The translations under genes and the position numbers were made by a program. DNA of 30,488 nucleotides from positions 1 through 30,488 of the IMG/VR virus record IMGVR_UViG_3300022689_000284, one strand, 5' to 3'. Each line of letters opens with the position of its first letter. Position 1 is the first letter of the stretch. The stretch is from a virus. Of the stretch, positions 1,437 through 30,488 are shown piece after piece. Below the pieces are notes generated by a model. The model was not told where the DNA came from and searched no databases. It worked only from the letters and a program-made list of their open reading frames with translations.

Positions 1437-1806
1437 TTAATAAATTCTCGGCTTCTTCTATTGACGATACGAACCCAGCTATACCGCCGTGCTCTATTAT
1501 TTTATTTATAAAGTTTTCTTGATTTTTAAATCTTATAGATTTATCTGAGAGTTTACAAGTGTCTTTGTTTTTTAGCCACCACTTAAGTTCCCCTGGTCGC
1601 TTTACTTCAAGAGCTACGAACCTAGACTTATATATGCCTAGGATGTCAGACACTCCATTGATCGTGAACTTAGTTGTATGCTTTCTAAATATCTTTTTAT
1701 TAGCGTCAAAGTAACCGCTCGATTGATTAGTCCAGAAAAACCCGTTTTGTCCATACTGCATGTTTAAGTTAAATAGTAAGGACTCTTGAAGTTGTAGCTC
1801 AGTCAC
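1417..1806 (-). CDS. VRR-NUC-type PD-(D/E)XK nuclease
   Basis: 129 residues, the usual size of phage single-domain VRR-NUC nucleases. The catalytic pattern is visible: GVSDILGIY (51-59, Asp54), VALEVKRPG (64-72, Glu67 and Lys69) and a helix with QENFINKIIEHGGIAGFV (from Gln96), typical of this branch of the PD-(D/E)XK superfamily. Such enzymes cut branched or structured DNA, such as Holliday junctions and flaps. In a phage this suits resolving replication or recombination intermediates before packaging. It overlaps the exported-protein gene upstream by 4 nt and the ParB-like gene downstream by 20 nt, so it belongs to the same transcript that leads into the methyltransferase and terminase. Confidence 0.8.
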   Translation of the reverse strand: MTELQLQESLLFNLNMQYGQNGFFWTNQSSGYFDANKKIFRKHTTKFTINGVSDILGIYKSRFVALEVKRPGELKWWLKNKDTCKLSDKSIRFKNQENFINKIIEHGGIAGFVSSIEEAENLLSDKDTL

Positions 1807-2231
1807 TTGAGTAAAAAATCATAGAGTTCTCTTTCTGACAAATCAACTTTATTTAAATCCATTATAAACTCCTCATACTCTATTGGGTTTAAAAGGGAGA
1901 AAGAATTTAAAAATACTTTCATCCTATTTTTCATAAGGTCTAGTATGTGATTTTGAATCTCTGGGACTTGAACCACTCTATTTCTTTCATTTTTTATGTA
2001 GAGAGTTATCTTGCTATCTCCAAGGCCGCCTATTCCAAGATTTATGTGAGCACTAAAAAAAGGTCTTGCATGATCGACAGCGAATGTAATGACATGCCTT
2101 CCCTCATGCTCGTATAGACGCAGTGTGCTAGTGAACGGTTTAACCTGGACATGGTAAAAATGAGGGACATGAGGCAGACCAAAACCTTTAACGCATAGTG
2201 TTAATCCAAGTAACATAATTAAATATTTCAT
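1803..2231 (-). CDS. Exported protein of unknown function
   Basis: 142 residues, not recognised. An N-terminal signal peptide is evident: Lys2, a hydrophobic core (LIMLLGLTLCV) and a probable cut near FG-LP at about residue 18. The mature part looks like a beta-rich domain followed by a helical C-terminus. There is no lipobox. The start lies only 7 nt downstream of a TATAAT (on the minus strand) and lacks a Shine-Dalgarno, so its mRNA may be leaderless. It is the first gene of the long leftward operon and is divergent to another small exported protein at 2296. A periplasmic role such as superinfection exclusion is possible but unproven. Confidence 0.75.
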   Translation of the reverse strand: MKYLIMLLGLTLCVKGFGLPHVPHFYHVQVKPFTSTLRLYEHEGRHVITFAVDHARPFFSAHINLGIGGLGDSKITLYIKNERNRVVQVPEIQNHILDLMKNRMKVFLNSFSLLNPIEYEEFIMDLNKVDLSERELYDFLLK

Positions 2232-2295
2232 GGTTTAAATTATACCTAATTTTTAACTCTAGGTTTTCAAATCTAGACAAAAGGAGATATTATTT
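2232..2295. promoter_or_regulatory. Divergent promoter region between two exported-protein genes
   Basis: 64 bp separate the leftward ATG at 2231 and the rightward ATG at 2296. On the minus strand a perfect TATAAT stands 7 nt before the leftward ATG. The nearest -35-like TTGAAA is about 20 nt further up, longer than ideal. On the plus strand AAGGAG at 2281-2286 is a good ribosome site for the rightward gene, but I see no convincing -10 for it. The leftward promoter would start the operon that leads to the terminase and structural genes. Confidence 0.5.
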
Positions 2296-2712
2296 ATGAA
2301 AAAAGTTTTGATTGTTTTAAGCTTAATTTTGTTAAGCCTAAATTTAAAGGCTTTACCAAATAGAAATTTATTCAAATTGTCCCATGGTTTAACTTTTTTA
2401 TTTGAGACAAAAGGCACAGCCATATTTACACGCCCTGTAAAGGCCAACATCAAATATTTTAATGACCAGGGTTCTTGGATTCTATTGGAGCTTACAGGGC
2501 AAGGTGAGCTATTCTTAAAAGAAACAAGCATGGGTTTAAAGAAATCAGAAATAAAAACTCTTTTGGAAAATGTTTATAAAGAGACTGAAGAAGGTTTAAC
2601 TGATTTTGATCGCAATGGAGCTATACTGCAGCAGTTTTACAGGAATTTGTTAGGTTTAACTGAGATAGATTTTTATTATATGAAGATTCGTGAATTAATA
2701 CTTCAGTTTTAA
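2296..2712 (+). CDS. Exported protein of unknown function
   Basis: 138 residues, not recognised. It has a clear signal peptide (MKK, then VLIVLSLILLSLNL, probable cleavage after LKA at about residue 19) and no lipobox. The mature chain appears beta-rich in the first half and helical in the second. It has a good Shine-Dalgarno (AAGGAG, 9 nt spacing). It is divergently transcribed from the exported protein at 2231. Size, signal peptide, a Leu-Pro just after the cut and a helical tail are shared by the two, so they may be distant paralogues, but the similarity is too weak to claim. A single gene followed by hairpins suggests its own transcription unit. Confidence 0.75.
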   Translation: MKKVLIVLSLILLSLNLKALPNRNLFKLSHGLTFLFETKGTAIFTRPVKANIKYFNDQGSWILLELTGQGELFLKETSMGLKKSEIKTLLENVYKETEEGLTDFDRNGAILQQFYRNLLGLTEIDFYYMKIRELILQF

Positions 2713-2725
2713 TTTAATTGACACT

Positions 2726-2822
2726 CACCGACCTAAAGGAAGGTGATTCTTGGGCTTAGATTTTAAAAATTCAAATATCTCCACAAGCTAACCCCGCATG
2801 CCCTGCGGTTAATTAAAGTAAT
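2726..2822. terminator. Hairpin cluster after the 2296 gene
   Basis: Two stem-loops follow the stop at 2712. The first, 2726-2745, has stems CACC/GGTG and CCT/AGG. The second, about 2797-2822, pairs TAACC/GGTTA and GCA/TGC across a two-base bulge. Neither is followed by a long T run, so a Rho-independent terminator is plausible rather than certain. They lie in the gap between this gene and a possible leftward small ORF at 3013. Confidence 0.35.
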
Positions 2823-2869
2823 AGTTTGTTTGTTTAAAAAGTAAAGTTAATGTTAACTAATTGTAAATT

Positions 2870-3013
2870 TTACAAACAAAAGTGAGTTAAGCTTACCTCC
2901 TCTACTTGAAAGAAGAGGTCTCCACGCTTAAAAAAAAGATAGTCTTCCCCTGCGAGTATTCTTTTTTCTACTTCTTTTTTTGATCTCAGTGGTAGCAAGG
3001 TTTTTTTCTTCAT
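2870..3013 (-). CDS. Possible small protein (47 aa), unknown
   Basis: An ATG-started open frame of 47 codons begins MKKKTLLPLR and contains EDYLFFKRGDLFFQVEEV before ending FCL. It is less AT-rich than the DNA around it and has a coherent charged-then-hydrophobic pattern, which favours real coding. Against it, there is no Shine-Dalgarno, it lies alone in a gene-poor region, and a hairpin (2899-2918) falls inside it. No family recognised. Confidence 0.35.
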   Translation of the reverse strand: MKKKTLLPLRSKKEVEKRILAGEDYLFFKRGDLFFQVEEVSLTHFCL

Positions 3014-3147
3014 AGTTGTTTTTACTTTTTTTTTTAATAGTAGTTAATTTGAAATGAATATTATTTAAGTTTTTTTTAAATTAAAAGGTTTTTAAAAAAA
3101 AAAAATTTAATTTAATCAACATTAATGATAATTAAAAAAAGAATTTC
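3014..3147. other. Homopolymer-rich A/T tract without genes
   Basis: This stretch consists mainly of long T and A runs and has no open frame of note. It directly precedes the folded block that begins near 3148. An AT-rich, easily melted tract beside strong hairpins and before the recombination genes would suit a replication origin. There are no iterons or DnaA boxes here, so that remains a guess. Confidence 0.3.
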
Positions 3148-3453
3148 TACCTGTGAAGGAGAGTGTAGCTCGAAGAGCTACAAATAAACTCGACTGAAAC
3201 AGGGCAACAAGTGCGTAGGCGCTTGTTGTATACCTACCAGTTTATCGTCATTCGAGTAGTTAACTACAAGTTAACATTTTCGTGGTTGACCACGAACGCT
3301 TCCCGTAAAATTATATTAGTATATAGGGCTCAAAAACACGTCAAGCGTTTATGCGCAATGTCATTGAAAATAATTTTAGTTTAGGCCACAAGAGCGAAAA
3401 CTATTTTTAACATAACATGCAGCGTTAAAAAAAAACTGCTTAAAAATTAAGCA
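3148..3453. ncRNA. Candidate structured RNA of unknown family
   Basis: No gene fits here, but stems are dense. Visible pairings: TGTAGCTC/GAGCTACA (3164-3182, GAA loop); a 10-bp stem 3205-3228 with a GTAG loop; CCTGT 3150-3154 with ACAGG 3199-3203; ACTCGA 3188-3193 with TCGAGT 3252-3257, which crosses the previous stem and would make a pseudoknot; TTCGTGG/CCACGAA (3279-3296); AACGCTT 3295-3301 with AAGCGTT 3343-3349; and TGCTTAA/TTAAGCA (3437-3453). The block is more G+C-rich than its flanks. No tRNA, tmRNA, group I intron core or hammerhead core was found. The strand is unclear, though a start codon at 3536 on the plus strand suggests plus. Confidence 0.45.
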
Positions 3454-3535
3454 AACGCAAACTAGGATACATGATTCTCATTTTCATTTAGAGTTAAAAT
3501 GCTATTAATTTTGCATTAAAACTAAAGGGGGTAAA

Positions 3536-3700
3536 TTGGATTTTTTAAAGAAAAATAATGATAAAGATACTTTGGATTTAAAGAAGTCTGTAGGTGAGGA
3601 AACTAATCTTCACATTAGACAGAGGTTATTCAATAACCTAAGAAATAAAGCATTAATAAAGTATTATGATTTAATTAAGAAGAAGAAAATAAAAAAATAA
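3536..3700 (+). CDS. Small basic protein (54 aa), TTG start
   Basis: A TTG-started frame of 54 codons, beginning MDFLKKNNDKDTLDLKK and ending in a Lys-rich tail (LIKKKKIKK). A strong Shine-Dalgarno (AAAGGGGG) sits about 4 nt upstream, which is the main reason to accept this start. It is highly charged with a central helix (about 24-45). No family recognised; a nucleic-acid-binding role fits the charge only. It follows the structured block and is convergent with the gene at 4112. Confidence 0.6.
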   Translation: MDFLKKNNDKDTLDLKKSVGEETNLHIRQRLFNNLRNKALIKYYDLIKKKKIKK

Positions 3701-3707
3701 TCGGTCC

Positions 3708-3731
3708 TTCAAAGCTATTTGTAGCCTTGAA
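3708..3731. terminator. Hairpin in the convergent gap 3701-3740
   Basis: A 10-bp stem with one mismatch pairs TTCAA-GCTA with TAGC-TTGAA around a TTTG loop, midway between two converging genes. T runs follow within about 10-14 nt on both strands. It probably ends transcription from both sides. Confidence 0.5.
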
Positions 3732-3740
3732 TTCCTAAGC

Positions 3741-4112
3741 TTATTTTTTTTTCTTTTGAATTAGACTCTCTTCAAACTTCCATATATAGCGCATAAGTTT
3801 TACCTTATCTTCTCTTTTAATAAGAGGATGAGAAATTCTACTCAAGAGCTTCTTAGCTTTAAGGAGTTCACCATAATGCAATTGGTCAATTATGCGCTGG
3901 TAAAGTCTTACATAATTCTCGGCCATCTCTCCTTTATATCCAAGATAGTGCGTTGTAAACATAACAAGATAATTTTCAAACTTTTCTGAAAAGTTTTTAA
4001 TTTTACTAAAGACTAATTGTTTTTCTAAGGTGTCTTGATAATACTTATTTTTTTTAAAAATTCTTGAAAGGTTGTCTGTATCGTTTTGTGTTAAGTCATA
4101 ATGAAAATACAT
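3741..4112 (-). CDS. Conserved-looking hypothetical protein (123 aa)
   Basis: Not recognised. 123 residues, predicted almost wholly helical, rich in Lys, Tyr and Phe, ending in a Lys-rich tail (QKKKK). It has no signal peptide or membrane segment. The start is supported by AGGAG 6 nt before the ATG (read on the minus strand). It is the only leftward gene in the early region and is divergent to the small regulator at 4340, so it may be controlled from the shared 4113-4339 gap. A cytoplasmic regulatory or host-takeover role is possible; nothing in the sequence decides it. Confidence 0.7.
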   Translation of the reverse strand: MYFHYDLTQNDTDNLSRIFKKNKYYQDTLEKQLVFSKIKNFSEKFENYLVMFTTHYLGYKGEMAENYVRLYQRIIDQLHYGELLKAKKLLSRISHPLIKREDKVKLMRYIWKFEESLIQKKKK

Positions 4113-11360: not shown

Positions 11361-11645
11361 ATGACAATAGAAGAAGCTGTTGAACAAAATTTATTAGATG
11401 AAGATCATTGGATTGTAAGAGCCAAAACTAAAAATGCAAATATAAGTTTTTCTAAAACATCAAAAATTATCTGGCATGATGGAATTTGGGAAGATGGAAT
11501 TTGGGAAGATGGAACCTGGCTCGATGGAATTTGGGAAAATGGAATCTGGGTAGACGGAACTTGGATCAATGGTTCCTTTGAAAAAGGCAAATGGATAAAA
11601 TCAAACGGAATGATTAACACCACTTTAATTAAAAGTCTCTTTTAA
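11361..11645 (+). CDS. Trp-rich pentapeptide tandem-repeat protein (94 aa)
   Basis: 94 residues. Residues 37-78 are tandem five-residue units of the form [I/T]-W-x-[D/N]-G: IWHDG IWEDG IWEDG TWLDG, then IWENG IWVDG TWING, fading to SFEKG KW. Such short regular units are expected to stack into a beta-helix or solenoid, with Trp on one face and Asp/Gly turns. The flanks are ordinary helix and strand. A good Shine-Dalgarno (AGAGGA) supports the start. Second gene of the plus-strand cassette; partner unknown. A surface, receptor or DNA-mimic role is conceivable but not shown. Confidence 0.7.
   Translation: MTIEEAVEQNLLDEDHWIVRAKTKNANISFSKTSKIIWHDGIWEDGIWEDGTWLDGIWENGIWVDGTWINGSFEKGKWIKSNGMINTTLIKSLF
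11469..11594 (+). repeat. 15-bp in-frame tandem repeat
   Basis: About eight degenerate 15-bp units of the type GGAATTTGGGAAGAT encode the [I/T]-W-x-[D/N]-G repeats. The 15-bp period equals five codons, so copy-number change would keep the frame. Confidence 0.75.
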
Positions 11646-27761: not shown

Positions 27762-29858
27762 TTATAATTGATAAGCCCTTGGAATTTCACCATGAAAGGG
27801 CAGTAAAGCATGACACGCATAACCAAGAGCATCACTTATGTGAGTAAGCATTGGATCACTTGCATCTAGTTTATTATTTTTCCATGAAACTTTATCCAAA
27901 TCATTAATTAGTTTCTTACATTTAGGACTTATTTTTATTTTATTAAGACCAAAAAGTCGGTTTACATTATTAACCCGGTCAACTACGAAAGGGTTATGAT
28001 TTGATCTAATCTGAAACCCGGCTTGCCTAATGATATCAAAGTCAGACTGCCCACTTGTCTTTCTATTCTTTCCTGTACTATCAGGAATAACAATAGCCCC
28101 AGTGTAACCAGCTTGTTTCCATGCGTGAGTTGCTCTAAACGTATCGCTATTTCTTAAAAAGAATTCATTGAATATTCTTATTTCATTATCAATGAATTGG
28201 AATGCAATTGAGCAATAAGGATCAACGTTGAAATCTGTGGCTATGAATACAGTGCCTGGTTGTTTTTTTACATCAAACACATGAGTCTCACGGTTAAAAG
28301 CATAGTATACTTGACCGTCACTCTCGTCTGTATAAAGACCATAAAGAAAACGATCACGTTCACTTTTTGGAAGTGATTCAAGCATTGATATATAATCTTT
28401 ATCAATATTTTCTAAATTGTCATTTGGGTTCATTAATAAAGAAGTATAATTTTCAGGATCTTTTAAAGGTTCGTTGTCTATTGGGTCTAGTTTTTTCTCA
28501 AATACCCAGTACTGCCATGATGATTTCTTAGGAGGGTTGCTGTCATAATAAACTTTTTTATTTAAAGAGGTTTTTTCTGCAAGTCTAGTTAATGCTAAAT
28601 TTATAGAGCTGTATTCAATTTGCGAAGTCTCATTAAAGTAGACTGTTGAATATTCATTACCTAAAATCTTTTCAGTCCTTTCCTTTGAGTCAAGTCCACC
28701 TATCCATATCTCACTACCATTGATTAGTTTTATATAGTAATCAGAACTATTCTTTTTAAAATATAGATTTGGCAGTGCATATTCAAAAACCTTTGGTATA
28801 GTATCTAACCATAAAGAGCGCTTAGCATGATTAAATTTATCTCTTAATATTATGTGTCTGGACTTAGTCTTTGATGCTCTTATTAATACTGCATAGACTA
28901 AAAGGAAAGTTTTGCCTGAGTTATGATTTAAAAAATCATTTGCATAATAATGCTCTAGAATCGGCACGTTTAAAGTATAATAATCTTGTATGGTGGAAGC
29001 CGTTGACTCCTTAATCCGCTCTAATTTATAACTATTCTTTTTAGGAGTATCTAATGAGTAAATGTTATAGGGAAGCGAGAACTGGACGTATTGGTCTACA
29101 TAATTATGAAAAGGTAACTCAAATGATTTTGGAAGGCTTAACTGCATCAGAAATTTCAGATCACTTTGGACTCGCCCCTGAAACAATTCGAAAATTTGCC
29201 CGTAAAAGAAATTTGAAGATAAAGAAGCATGACATGAGTATGGAGAATCATCCTGCATGGAGAGGTGGGGTAACTTATGATCGTAGAGGCTATAAATTAA
29301 CTCGAGTAAAGAAAAAAGGTCTTTTTGGTTATTTAATAAGAGCAAATAGTGGTGGATATTCAGGTGGCTATGCACCTGTTCATAGGATTGAAATGCATAA
29401 GAAGCTAAAAAGGAAATTAAAAGAAAACGAAGTCGTGGACCATATCGACGGGGACCATCGGAATAATCATCCTGATAATCTAAGAATATTTCCTTCAAAC
29501 TCGGAACATTTGCGAGTAACTCGGAAGGGTAAAAAACCAAATTGGACTCAAGATGGTTGGAAAAAGATTTGCTCTTTAAAACCGAGATTAAAGAAGAAGA
29601 GTTAAGATCCTTTGCTTTAATCCATTTATATCCATTCCAAAACTTATGATCAGGTGTAACTTCTATAGTTTTATTTGTTTCAGTTACTATTTTAATAAGT
29701 TGGCATTTACCTTTTTTAAAAGGTGGGTTAGCTATTTGTTTTCCATAAGTTGTTAAAACTTCTACAGGATTATTTAGTTCAGCTAACTCTTTAATTGTTT
29801 TAGTTTGCCCATTAAGTATTGTATCACCTGAAACGCATCTCGATCCTCCGTAAAGCAT
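27762..29858 (-). CDS. Terminase large subunit with intein in the Walker A motif
   Basis: 698 codons from the first ATG. ATP-driven motor and nuclease that packages DNA. Residues 1-7 (MLYGGSR) and 314 onward (SGKTFLL) join after intein removal to GGSRSGKT, a Walker A loop. Other motifs: Walker B TVYFNE (405-410), coupling motif YYDSNPP (437-443), and nuclease acidic residues in ATDFNVD (Asp542), IPDSTG (Asp593) and HISDALGYA (Asp676). The intein occupies residues 8-313. The ATG at 29858 falls inside the conserved domain: the same frame is open for 26 more codons upstream, encoding EDLEFNLTKKQDEAIDLLVS, the expected N-terminus, with no ATG, GTG or TTG. An AUA at 29934-29936, overlapping the small-terminase stop, is the best candidate start. 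Without splicing the ATPase would be dead. Confidence 0.93.
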   Translation of the reverse strand: MLYGGSRCVSGDTILNGQTKTIKELAELNNPVEVLTTYGKQIANPPFKKGKCQLIKIVTETNKTIEVTPDHKFWNGYKWIKAKDLNSSSLISVLKSKSFSNHLESNLVFYPSELLANVPSLKEIFLDYQDDYSDGPRRYGPRLRFLLISFLASYAFQSYEQVHSHLNIHHYLLLLNNQKDLFSLLELIYSLYDHKLPHLSMQDDSPYSCHASLSSNFFYGQIFELFQGRVQSDLKFLMQLSLPKSFELPFHNYVDQYVQFSLPYNIYSLDTPKKNSYKLERIKESTASTIQDYYTLNVPILEHYYANDFLNHNSGKTFLLVYAVLIRASKTKSRHIILRDKFNHAKRSLWLDTIPKVFEYALPNLYFKKNSSDYYIKLINGSEIWIGGLDSKERTEKILGNEYSTVYFNETSQIEYSSINLALTRLAEKTSLNKKVYYDSNPPKKSSWQYWVFEKKLDPIDNEPLKDPENYTSLLMNPNDNLENIDKDYISMLESLPKSERDRFLYGLYTDESDGQVYYAFNRETHVFDVKKQPGTVFIATDFNVDPYCSIAFQFIDNEIRIFNEFFLRNSDTFRATHAWKQAGYTGAIVIPDSTGKNRKTSGQSDFDIIRQAGFQIRSNHNPFVVDRVNNVNRLFGLNKIKISPKCKKLINDLDKVSWKNNKLDASDPMLTHISDALGYACHALLPFHGEIPRAYQL
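29003..29032 (+). promoter_or_regulatory. Promoter inside the intein, directed at the HNH gene
   Basis: TTGACT at 29003-29008 and TATAAC at 29027-29032, spaced 18 nt, give a strong sigma70-type match on the plus strand. A start near 29039 leaves a short leader with AGGAG (29043-29047) and the ATG at 29054. It is embedded in sense-strand codons near intein residues 276-286. Confidence 0.6.
29054..29605 (+). CDS. HNH homing endonuclease, antisense within the intein
   Basis: 183 residues on the strand opposite to the terminase. The N-terminal part has a helix-turn-helix (about 27-50, LTASEISDHFGLAPETIRKFARKR) for target binding. The nuclease part has the HNH signature: VHR (His110), EVVDHIDGDHRNNHPDNL (His130, Asn138, His139, Asn142) and SNSEHLR. 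AGGAG lies 6 nt before the ATG, with a good promoter upstream. It fits exactly between the two splicing halves of the intein (sense residues 85-269), where in-frame endonucleases normally sit, so it is the likely homing enzyme. Both strands are open throughout. This is not a shadow frame: its domain content is clear, whereas the sense frame here has no recognisable domain. Confidence 0.9.
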   Translation: MSKCYREARTGRIGLHNYEKVTQMILEGLTASEISDHFGLAPETIRKFARKRNLKIKKHDMSMENHPAWRGGVTYDRRGYKLTRVKKKGLFGYLIRANSGGYSGGYAPVHRIEMHKKLKRKLKENEVVDHIDGDHRNNHPDNLRIFPSNSEHLRVTRKGKKPNWTQDGWKKICSLKPRLKKKS

Positions 29859-29932
29859 TATATGCTTAGCTTCAGATACGAGTAAATCAATGGCTTCATC
29901 TTGTTTTTTTGTTAAATTAAATTCTAGATCTT

Positions 29933-30307
29933 CTATAAATCTTTAGCCTTTACGTTTTTAAATTGAATTACATTTGATTTAACATCTAGACTTATGTCAC
30001 TACTATCCGTTTGACCTAATTCATTTTTACCAAGCCATATAAGCATTGAAGTATTACCAGCCATAGCAACATCATACTGTTTTTTTCTAAGGTTAATTCT
30101 AACCTTTTCTTTCTTTTTATTTTTATACTGGTCAAAACTGAAGCCCTTTTCACGCAATTTTCTCTGCAGTGTACTTACTGAAATTCCTAGTTTTTCCGCA
30201 CAATATTCTTCATTTGCCCAAATAATTAATGCGTCTAATTGGTCCCATAAAGTAAATTTTTCTTTATTTAAATCTATAGGAGGTCTTCCGCCTGGATGTT
30301 TACTCAT
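29933..30307 (-). CDS. Terminase small subunit
   Basis: 124 residues. Recognises phage DNA and loads the large terminase. The N-terminus (KHPGGRPPIDLNKE) is followed by a helix-turn-helix-like region (EEYCAEKLGISVSTLQRKLREKGFSFDQYK, about 33-62) and the characteristic AMAGNTSMLIWLGKNELGQTD (about 82-102) common to small-terminase-like phage proteins. Its ATG overlaps the methyltransferase stop (ATGA), and its TAG overlaps the probable AUA start of the large subunit (ATAG), so all three are likely translationally coupled. Confidence 0.82.
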   Translation of the reverse strand: MSKHPGGRPPIDLNKEKFTLWDQLDALIIWANEEYCAEKLGISVSTLQRKLREKGFSFDQYKNKKKEKVRINLRKKQYDVAMAGNTSMLIWLGKNELGQTDSSDISLDVKSNVIQFKNVKAKDL

Positions 30308-30488
30308 GTTGTTAACCTGTCTAATAATTGTTTTTTAATTTCTTTTGATATTTTATACATAGATAATGGAGGTACTGACATACCTACAATATATTCTATA
30401 TTTTTTTTAATTTTATAGTCTAGTGGAAATGATCCAATTATTTTTATTTCATAACTATTTAAATTTCTTTTTTTGTTCCAGTGATATA
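30304..30488 (-). CDS. DNA (cytosine-5) methyltransferase, C-terminal end (continuation of the gene at 1-946)
   Basis: This is the other side of the contig join. Bases 30390-30488 repeat 1-99, and the unique continuation is 30304-30389. It carries the C-terminal motif X, seen as VGMSVPP, the conserved segment that packs beside the SAM-binding motif I. The frame ends at TGA 30304-30306, which overlaps the ATG of the small terminase (ATGA), so the two genes are probably translationally coupled. With this end the enzyme has all the core motifs and looks intact. Confidence 0.88.
   Translation of the reverse strand, partial: YHWNKKRNLNSYEIKIIGSFPLDYKIKKNIEYIVGMSVPPLSMYKISKEIKKQLLDRLTT
30390..30488. 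repeat. Terminal direct repeat, right copy (99 bp)
   Basis: Exact second copy of bases 1-99. Joining the copies restores one continuous methyltransferase reading frame, which supports circular closure. The copied stretch encodes part of the C-terminal third of that enzyme. Confidence 0.95.

Follow-up and report, generated by a model that had tools for sequence, protein, structure and literature searches.

An intein in a phage terminase overlapped on the opposite strand by an HNH endonuclease gene, and its relatives in phages and bacteria

In the usual description of inteins, the endonuclease is encoded in the intein's own reading frame. The terminase large subunit (TerL) gene of the viral record analysed here (the window, i.e. 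the whole stretch of 30,488 bases) contains an intein that departs from this arrangement: a canonical large intein holds its endonuclease within the same polypeptide, whereas here an HNH gene lies on the opposite strand (Table 1). The locus raises the question of whether both readings of the same DNA are real genes, and whether together they make up a mobile element. The record carries an identical 99-base direct terminal repeat (1-99 and 30390-30488) and therefore probably represents an entire genome that closes into a circle, with a cytosine methyltransferase gene spanning the point of closure. Positions 11361-11645 are predicted to encode a protein of 94 aa containing tandem repeats of the type GIWEDGTWLDGIW. 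The position of the probable small terminase gene upstream of TerL matches that in related phages. Within the TerL frame between 29838 and 29942 the ATG at 29858 is the first start codon, no earlier ATG, GTG or TTG being present, while the homologous N-terminal sequence begins at about 29942, upstream of that ATG. TerL may be translated from a rare start codon or via a frameshift out of the small terminase gene.

Table 1. Features of the terminase locus in the window.
Feature	Coordinates	Strand	Basis
Probable small terminase, upstream of TerL	29933..30307	minus	weak PHROG small-terminase match, E 0.001
TerL ORF (terminase large subunit)	29858-27762	minus	698 aa, open reading frame with intein
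N-extein of TerL, to Walker A (RFIEDLEFNLTKKQDEAIDLL...MLYGGSR)	29838..29942	minus	open frame; matches N-termini of intein-less L003 and L005
Intein, 306 aa, Cys1 to Asn306, +1 Ser	28920..29837	minus	splicing blocks; Pfam Intein_splicing; AlphaFold2 (AF2) splicing domain
N-terminal part of splicing domain, residues 1-90 (Cys1, TPDH)	29568..29837	minus	pLDDT; family alignment
Intein linker, residues 91-259, predicted disordered, HNH gene read in reverse	29061..29567	minus	low pLDDT; overlap
C-terminal part of splicing domain, residues 260-306, ending HN	28920..29060	minus	high pLDDT; conservation
C-extein of TerL, first residues SGKT	27762..28919	minus	Terminase_3, E 6e-15; PHROG terminase large subunit
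Shine-Dalgarno AGGAG of HNH gene	29043..29047	plus	six bases 5′ of ATG
HNH endonuclease gene, 183 aa	29054..29605	plus	Pfam HNH_3; AF2; I-HmuI best structural match
Predicted helix-turn-helix, HNH protein residues 15-51	29096..29206	plus	AF2 helices; weak HTH matches
HNH nuclease motif, residues 110-152	29381..29509	plus	HNH_3 match at 110-149

The minus-strand translation of the intein is free of stops over all its 306 residues and reads GGSR/CVSGDT...TPDH...FLNHN/SGKT (slashes mark the splice junctions), its insertion point being the Walker A motif of TerL (GGSR/SGKT). The first-pass annotation had described a complete set of splicing blocks, and this holds: Cys1, the block B motif TPDH, the terminal HN and the +1 Ser are all in place, and the intein matches Pfam Intein_splicing (E 5e-9) and NCBIfam TIGR01445, the intein N-terminal region (E 4e-7). 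In an alignment of 29 intein sequences of the family, Cys1 and Asn306 are invariant and His305 is at least 90% conserved; 28 of the 29 match Intein_splicing. An AlphaFold2 model built with the family alignment has a mean pLDDT of at least 93 in every ten-residue block of residues 1-90 and high values again from about residue 261 to 306, while in the linker (about residues 91-259) pLDDT is mostly below 50. Foldseek searches with this model returned mini-inteins (E 3e-6) and the splicing domains of Ssp DnaB, Mtu RecA and Npu DnaB. The model confidently predicts a HINT fold for the splicing domain and a disordered linker that coincides with the HNH overlap. Judged by its motifs, the TerL precursor would splice out its intein.

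The HNH gene overlaps intein residues 78-261 in antisense, so that the linker is, as had been claimed, the antisense translation of that gene, a relationship that recurs in 45 diverged clusters of related loci (see below). The HNH protein of the window matches Pfam HNH_3 (E 2e-7), as do all 28 family HNH proteins, in which H110, H130, D132, N138, N142, N149 and H152 are invariant; a pattern search found the HNH motif in 88 of 89 loci. The HNH part of the initial assignment is thereby confirmed. The helix-turn-helix also assigned to this protein is weak by sequence (GerE, E 0.012, below the Pfam cut-off), although the AF2 model (mean pLDDT 87.6) places helices at residues 15-26, 31-38 and 42-51. 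The top Foldseek match of this model was I-HmuI (PDB 1u3e; E 0.065, probability 0.99), no fold in the PDB being matched at E 0.001 or better, and I-HmuI was also the best nuclease match in a profile search with the HNH protein (E 0.0012). I-HmuI is encoded by a group I intron, and its similarity to the HNH protein is weak and covers part of the protein.

The HNH protein is presumably expressed from its own Shine-Dalgarno start. A promoter scan of the window showed none above chance for the HNH gene, and a terminator scan of the window stayed within chance level. Across the family, Shine-Dalgarno energies had a median of -6.1 at HNH starts against -1.7 at other ATGs, a comparison biased by starts having been chosen partly by their Shine-Dalgarno sequence; among the eight loci with one candidate start, six had a strong Shine-Dalgarno sequence and two had none. 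In a subgroup (L008, L011, L083, L092, L099 and relatives) the HNH protein has a C-terminal extension. The 3′ end of the gene there lies antisense under the intein N-block, nearly to Cys1, with the overlap beginning at intein residues 7-20, and the HNH and splicing motifs therefore share bases.

Database searches with both proteins had been suggested at the outset, and they fared differently. The HNH protein retrieved a GC-rich phage contig (L002) with an HNH protein 59% identical, likewise encoded antisense within an intein that occupies the same TerL site. Tblastn against phage records added seven Pectobacterium phages, Dickeya phage Setonix and Pseudoalteromonas phage PHS3; the layout was seen on reading the sequences of phages Ymer, Setonix and PHS3, and the gene table of Abuela matches that of Ymer. 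Of 274 relatives found among viral contigs with a profile, the 80 best were retained. The whole 306-aa intein used as a single query, by contrast, found no matches, since the amino acid sequence of the linker is not conserved.

A long antisense frame, always in the same relative phase, spans the HNH gene in all 80 viral loci kept, with 15 bases tolerated at either end of the frame and one stop present within it in L055, a near-duplicate. Splice junctions in the Walker A motif of TerL were discernible in nearly all 80; automatic calling of the N-terminal junction gave none for 11 loci and mis-called L008, which reads GFG/CVHPHT. The 89 loci in total comprise 72 distinct HNH sequences, several of the loci being near-identical copies, and form 45 clusters at 70% identity. 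Five of them, with the layout in the same relative phase, come from bacterial genomes, e.g. the chromosome of Enterobacter cloacae DSM 26481 and an Acinetobacter, and an additional close copy, beyond the 89, is found in Escherichia coli MEI003. TerL inteins with an antisense HNH gene are a widespread family of which the window is one member.

The N-terminal splicing block was also used as sole query. It retrieved 28 + 79 loci, many of them on the same contigs as in the HNH searches. An antisense HNH gene was present in 65 of the 90 loci examined and no HNH gene in the other 25. The family HNH profile detected no in-frame HNH, and no out-of-frame HNH on the same strand, in any of the 90, in agreement with the earlier statement that the intein's own frame lacks the endonuclease; homologues with an in-frame HNH in this segment, which would have spoken against the arrangement, were thus not encountered. 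The 25 loci without HNH include mini-inteins of 130-155 aa at the TerL site of the window (L121, L145, L165, L176, L178, L188 and L200), two of which, L121 and L145, are confirmed by Pfam as terminase plus intein. These resemble the window intein in having a related N-block and the same Walker A site, but differ from it in their length and in that the element is without its endonuclease gene. Also among the 25 are distant inteins in other genes, L132 carrying a clear in-frame LAGLIDADG domain.

The element is very likely a mobile intein composed of two overlapping genes on opposite strands, one for the TerL-intein and one for a homing HNH protein. On the minus strand, TerL and a Cys-type intein within Walker A would be made as one polypeptide, and the HINT domain, with the splicing blocks described above, would cut itself out and ligate the exteins. 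On the plus strand, a separate HNH protein, presumably translated from its own start, would cleave terL alleles that lack the intein, at the insertion site or close to it. Repair after the cut would copy the entire intein, endonuclease gene included, and the linker would be the reverse-strand reading of that gene.

Comparison with intein-less alleles and between related elements bears on mobility. Intein-less TerL relatives of the window show the empty site GGSRSGKT. The spliced TerL of MEI003 is 77-79% identical in amino acids to the intein-less TerL of E. coli ET729 and 3426, the alignment being gap-free across the junction. The intein-less alleles are likewise without the HNH gene, which is located inside the element. 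Further, the 1,008-base inteins of MEI003 and DSM 26481 are 92.2% identical in DNA, whereas identity is 74% for the upstream 90 bases and 60-79% per 100-base window across the first 1,000 downstream bases. The higher identity of the intein than of its flanks points to a recent lateral transfer, and the intein-less alleles and this probable transfer together support mobility of the element. Among 42 representatives, 44 pairs combine HNH scores above 150 bits with TerL extein scores below 40.

The HNH gene might instead be a passenger or a relic, the element persisting as a splicing intein without homing. Loss of the HNH gene is possible, since mini-inteins without it share the site, and expression and activity of the protein are putative. 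However, the motif is intact in essentially all loci, differences between HNH genes fall mostly at third codon positions (906/745/2407 at positions 1/2/3 in 33 related gene pairs, some of them near-duplicates), and the recent transfer between MEI003 and DSM 26481 requires some mobility, so that a relic is very unlikely.

A separate endonuclease gene located between the N- and C-terminal parts of an intein also recalls a split intein, with TerL made in two pieces and a free-standing endonuclease gene between the halves. Such 'fractured genes', with a separate endonuclease gene between two split-intein halves, were reportedly described by Dassa et al. in 2009. In them the host gene is split, whereas the host frame of the window is continuous: no break occurs in it across the linker in any of the 45 representatives, while a split gene needs no open frame. 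A split intein was rejected on these grounds and is very unlikely to account for the family. Two further candidates were rejected. An assembly inversion, a doubt raised together with the first description of the locus, does not fit a layout that recurs in independent contigs, sequenced phage isolates and bacterial chromosomes; no inverted repeats of at least 30 nt were found in the window. A group I intron is at odds with a translated intein, and Rfam gave no group I match up to E 1.

HNH proteins adjoining terminases are packaging factors in some phages, and the proximity of this HNH gene to terL would suit a role in DNA packaging. It is, however, embedded in the intein and is missing along with it from intein-less alleles. 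Its similarity follows that of the splicing domain (rho 0.66) better than that of TerL (rho 0.38). With a homing endonuclease, I-HmuI, as its best nuclease match, a function other than homing seems most doubtful.

Synonymous codons were permuted within each HNH gene, protein and codon usage being held fixed, in 45 representatives sharing less than 70% HNH identity and ranging from 37 to 64% GC. No stops were observed in the antisense intein frame against 288 expected. For the window gene, none of 60,000 shuffles kept that frame open (mean 7.8 stops per shuffle). The remaining two antisense phases had stops as expected, one with 433 against 388.5; the other, with 339, is fixed by the protein and is uninformative. 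Five freestanding HNH relatives had 4-22 stops in the intein phase, as expected in four of them (L014 has 7 against 11).

Up to twelve pairs of elements were compared at the codon positions of the intein. Differences numbered 280/195/656 at positions 1/2/3 in the non-overlapped splicing blocks and 372/973/324 inside the overlap, where position 2 of the intein codon is position 3 of the HNH codon; amino acid identity fell from 0.74 over the splicing blocks to 0.48 over the linker. The codon-position patterns therefore indicate that constraint acts on the splicing blocks as intein sequence and on the overlap as HNH sequence, the linker mainly needing to stay without stop codons and to tolerate disorder. 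It is hardly credible that chance or base composition accounts for the open antisense frame and that one reading alone is real: long antisense frames are common in GC-rich DNA, and L102 and L053 taken singly are of weak significance (P 0.018 and 0.163), but the absence of stops throughout clusters of such varied GC content, the stops retained by freestanding relatives and in the remaining phases, and the conserved domains in both readings, each constrained in its own segment, refute it for the family. The two-strand architecture is genuine and conserved, and selection maintains it.

More broadly, it is likely, if slightly less so than for the two-gene reading of the element itself, that the loci belong to a widespread, so far unreported type of mobile intein in which a mini-intein was invaded by an opposite-strand homing-endonuclease gene, the two-strand overlap is kept by selection, the unit moves between unrelated terminases, and the terminases are mis-called broken or hypothetical. 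The antisense intein accounts for mis-annotated terminases. In MEI003 (L105, 1364-3651), TerL is labelled in RefSeq as a pseudogene without its N-terminus, beside the HNH gene, because of the antisense intein; the annotation of phage PHS3 gives TerL without its N-terminal part; and that of phage Ymer lists the TerL frame as a 'hypothetical protein' and omits the HNH gene. As in MEI003, antisense inteins may lie behind further prophage terminases that look 'broken'. Surveys restricted to in-frame domains would score antisense-HNH inteins as endonuclease-less. A mobility gene on the opposite strand would presumably be expressed separately from its host gene, with about 550 bases shared by two proteins. 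The family offers an extensive natural experiment on genes that overlap in antisense, one reading being constrained as protein and the other mainly kept open.

The first-pass annotation knew of no common intein with an antisense endonuclease, and no published case was found, most subscription papers and bioRxiv lying outside the scope of the search and priority being unproven. Among mycobacteriophage TerL inteins, five spliced and two of these cut intein-less alleles (PMC5050341). TerL1-a and TerL1-b of that set lie, like the intein of the window, in the Walker A region, but the TerL1-a site is between Lys and Thr and the insertion in the window is three residues upstream (GGSR/SGKT). The nuclease activity tested in those inteins goes with an identifiable endonuclease domain in the intein itself (PMC5050341), whereas the HNH of the window is antisense.

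The closest published case is the ShiLan domain of phage methylases, in which an out-of-frame HNH is hidden (PMC11855218). As in the window, the HNH gene lies in an insertion through which the host frame stays open, and there are signs of mobility. The ShiLan HNH, however, is read in a different frame of the host gene's own strand, and its authors report no intein splicing motifs (PMC11855218), whereas the HNH gene of the window is antisense to a complete intein, splicing motifs included. In L012 (LR756508.1, a 484-kb uncultured phage), an HNH gene (2024-2908) lies inside a DNA methylase frame (1651-4002), both on the plus strand in different frames. This methylase frame has 0 stops over the HNH gene against 17.4 expected, and by eye shows intein-like end blocks (CITPDTEIL, SPEH, VTGN/S); neither Pfam nor NCBIfam called an intein in it.

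The resemblance to antisense genes of group I introns, drawn when the locus was first described, is apt. The nuclear group I introns L2066 and S956 of Didymium carry antisense homing-endonuclease genes, and so, like the window, have such a gene opposite its host splicing element (PMC9548176). Their host element, however, is a ribozyme without a reading frame to hold open (PMC9548176), whereas that of the window is an intein.
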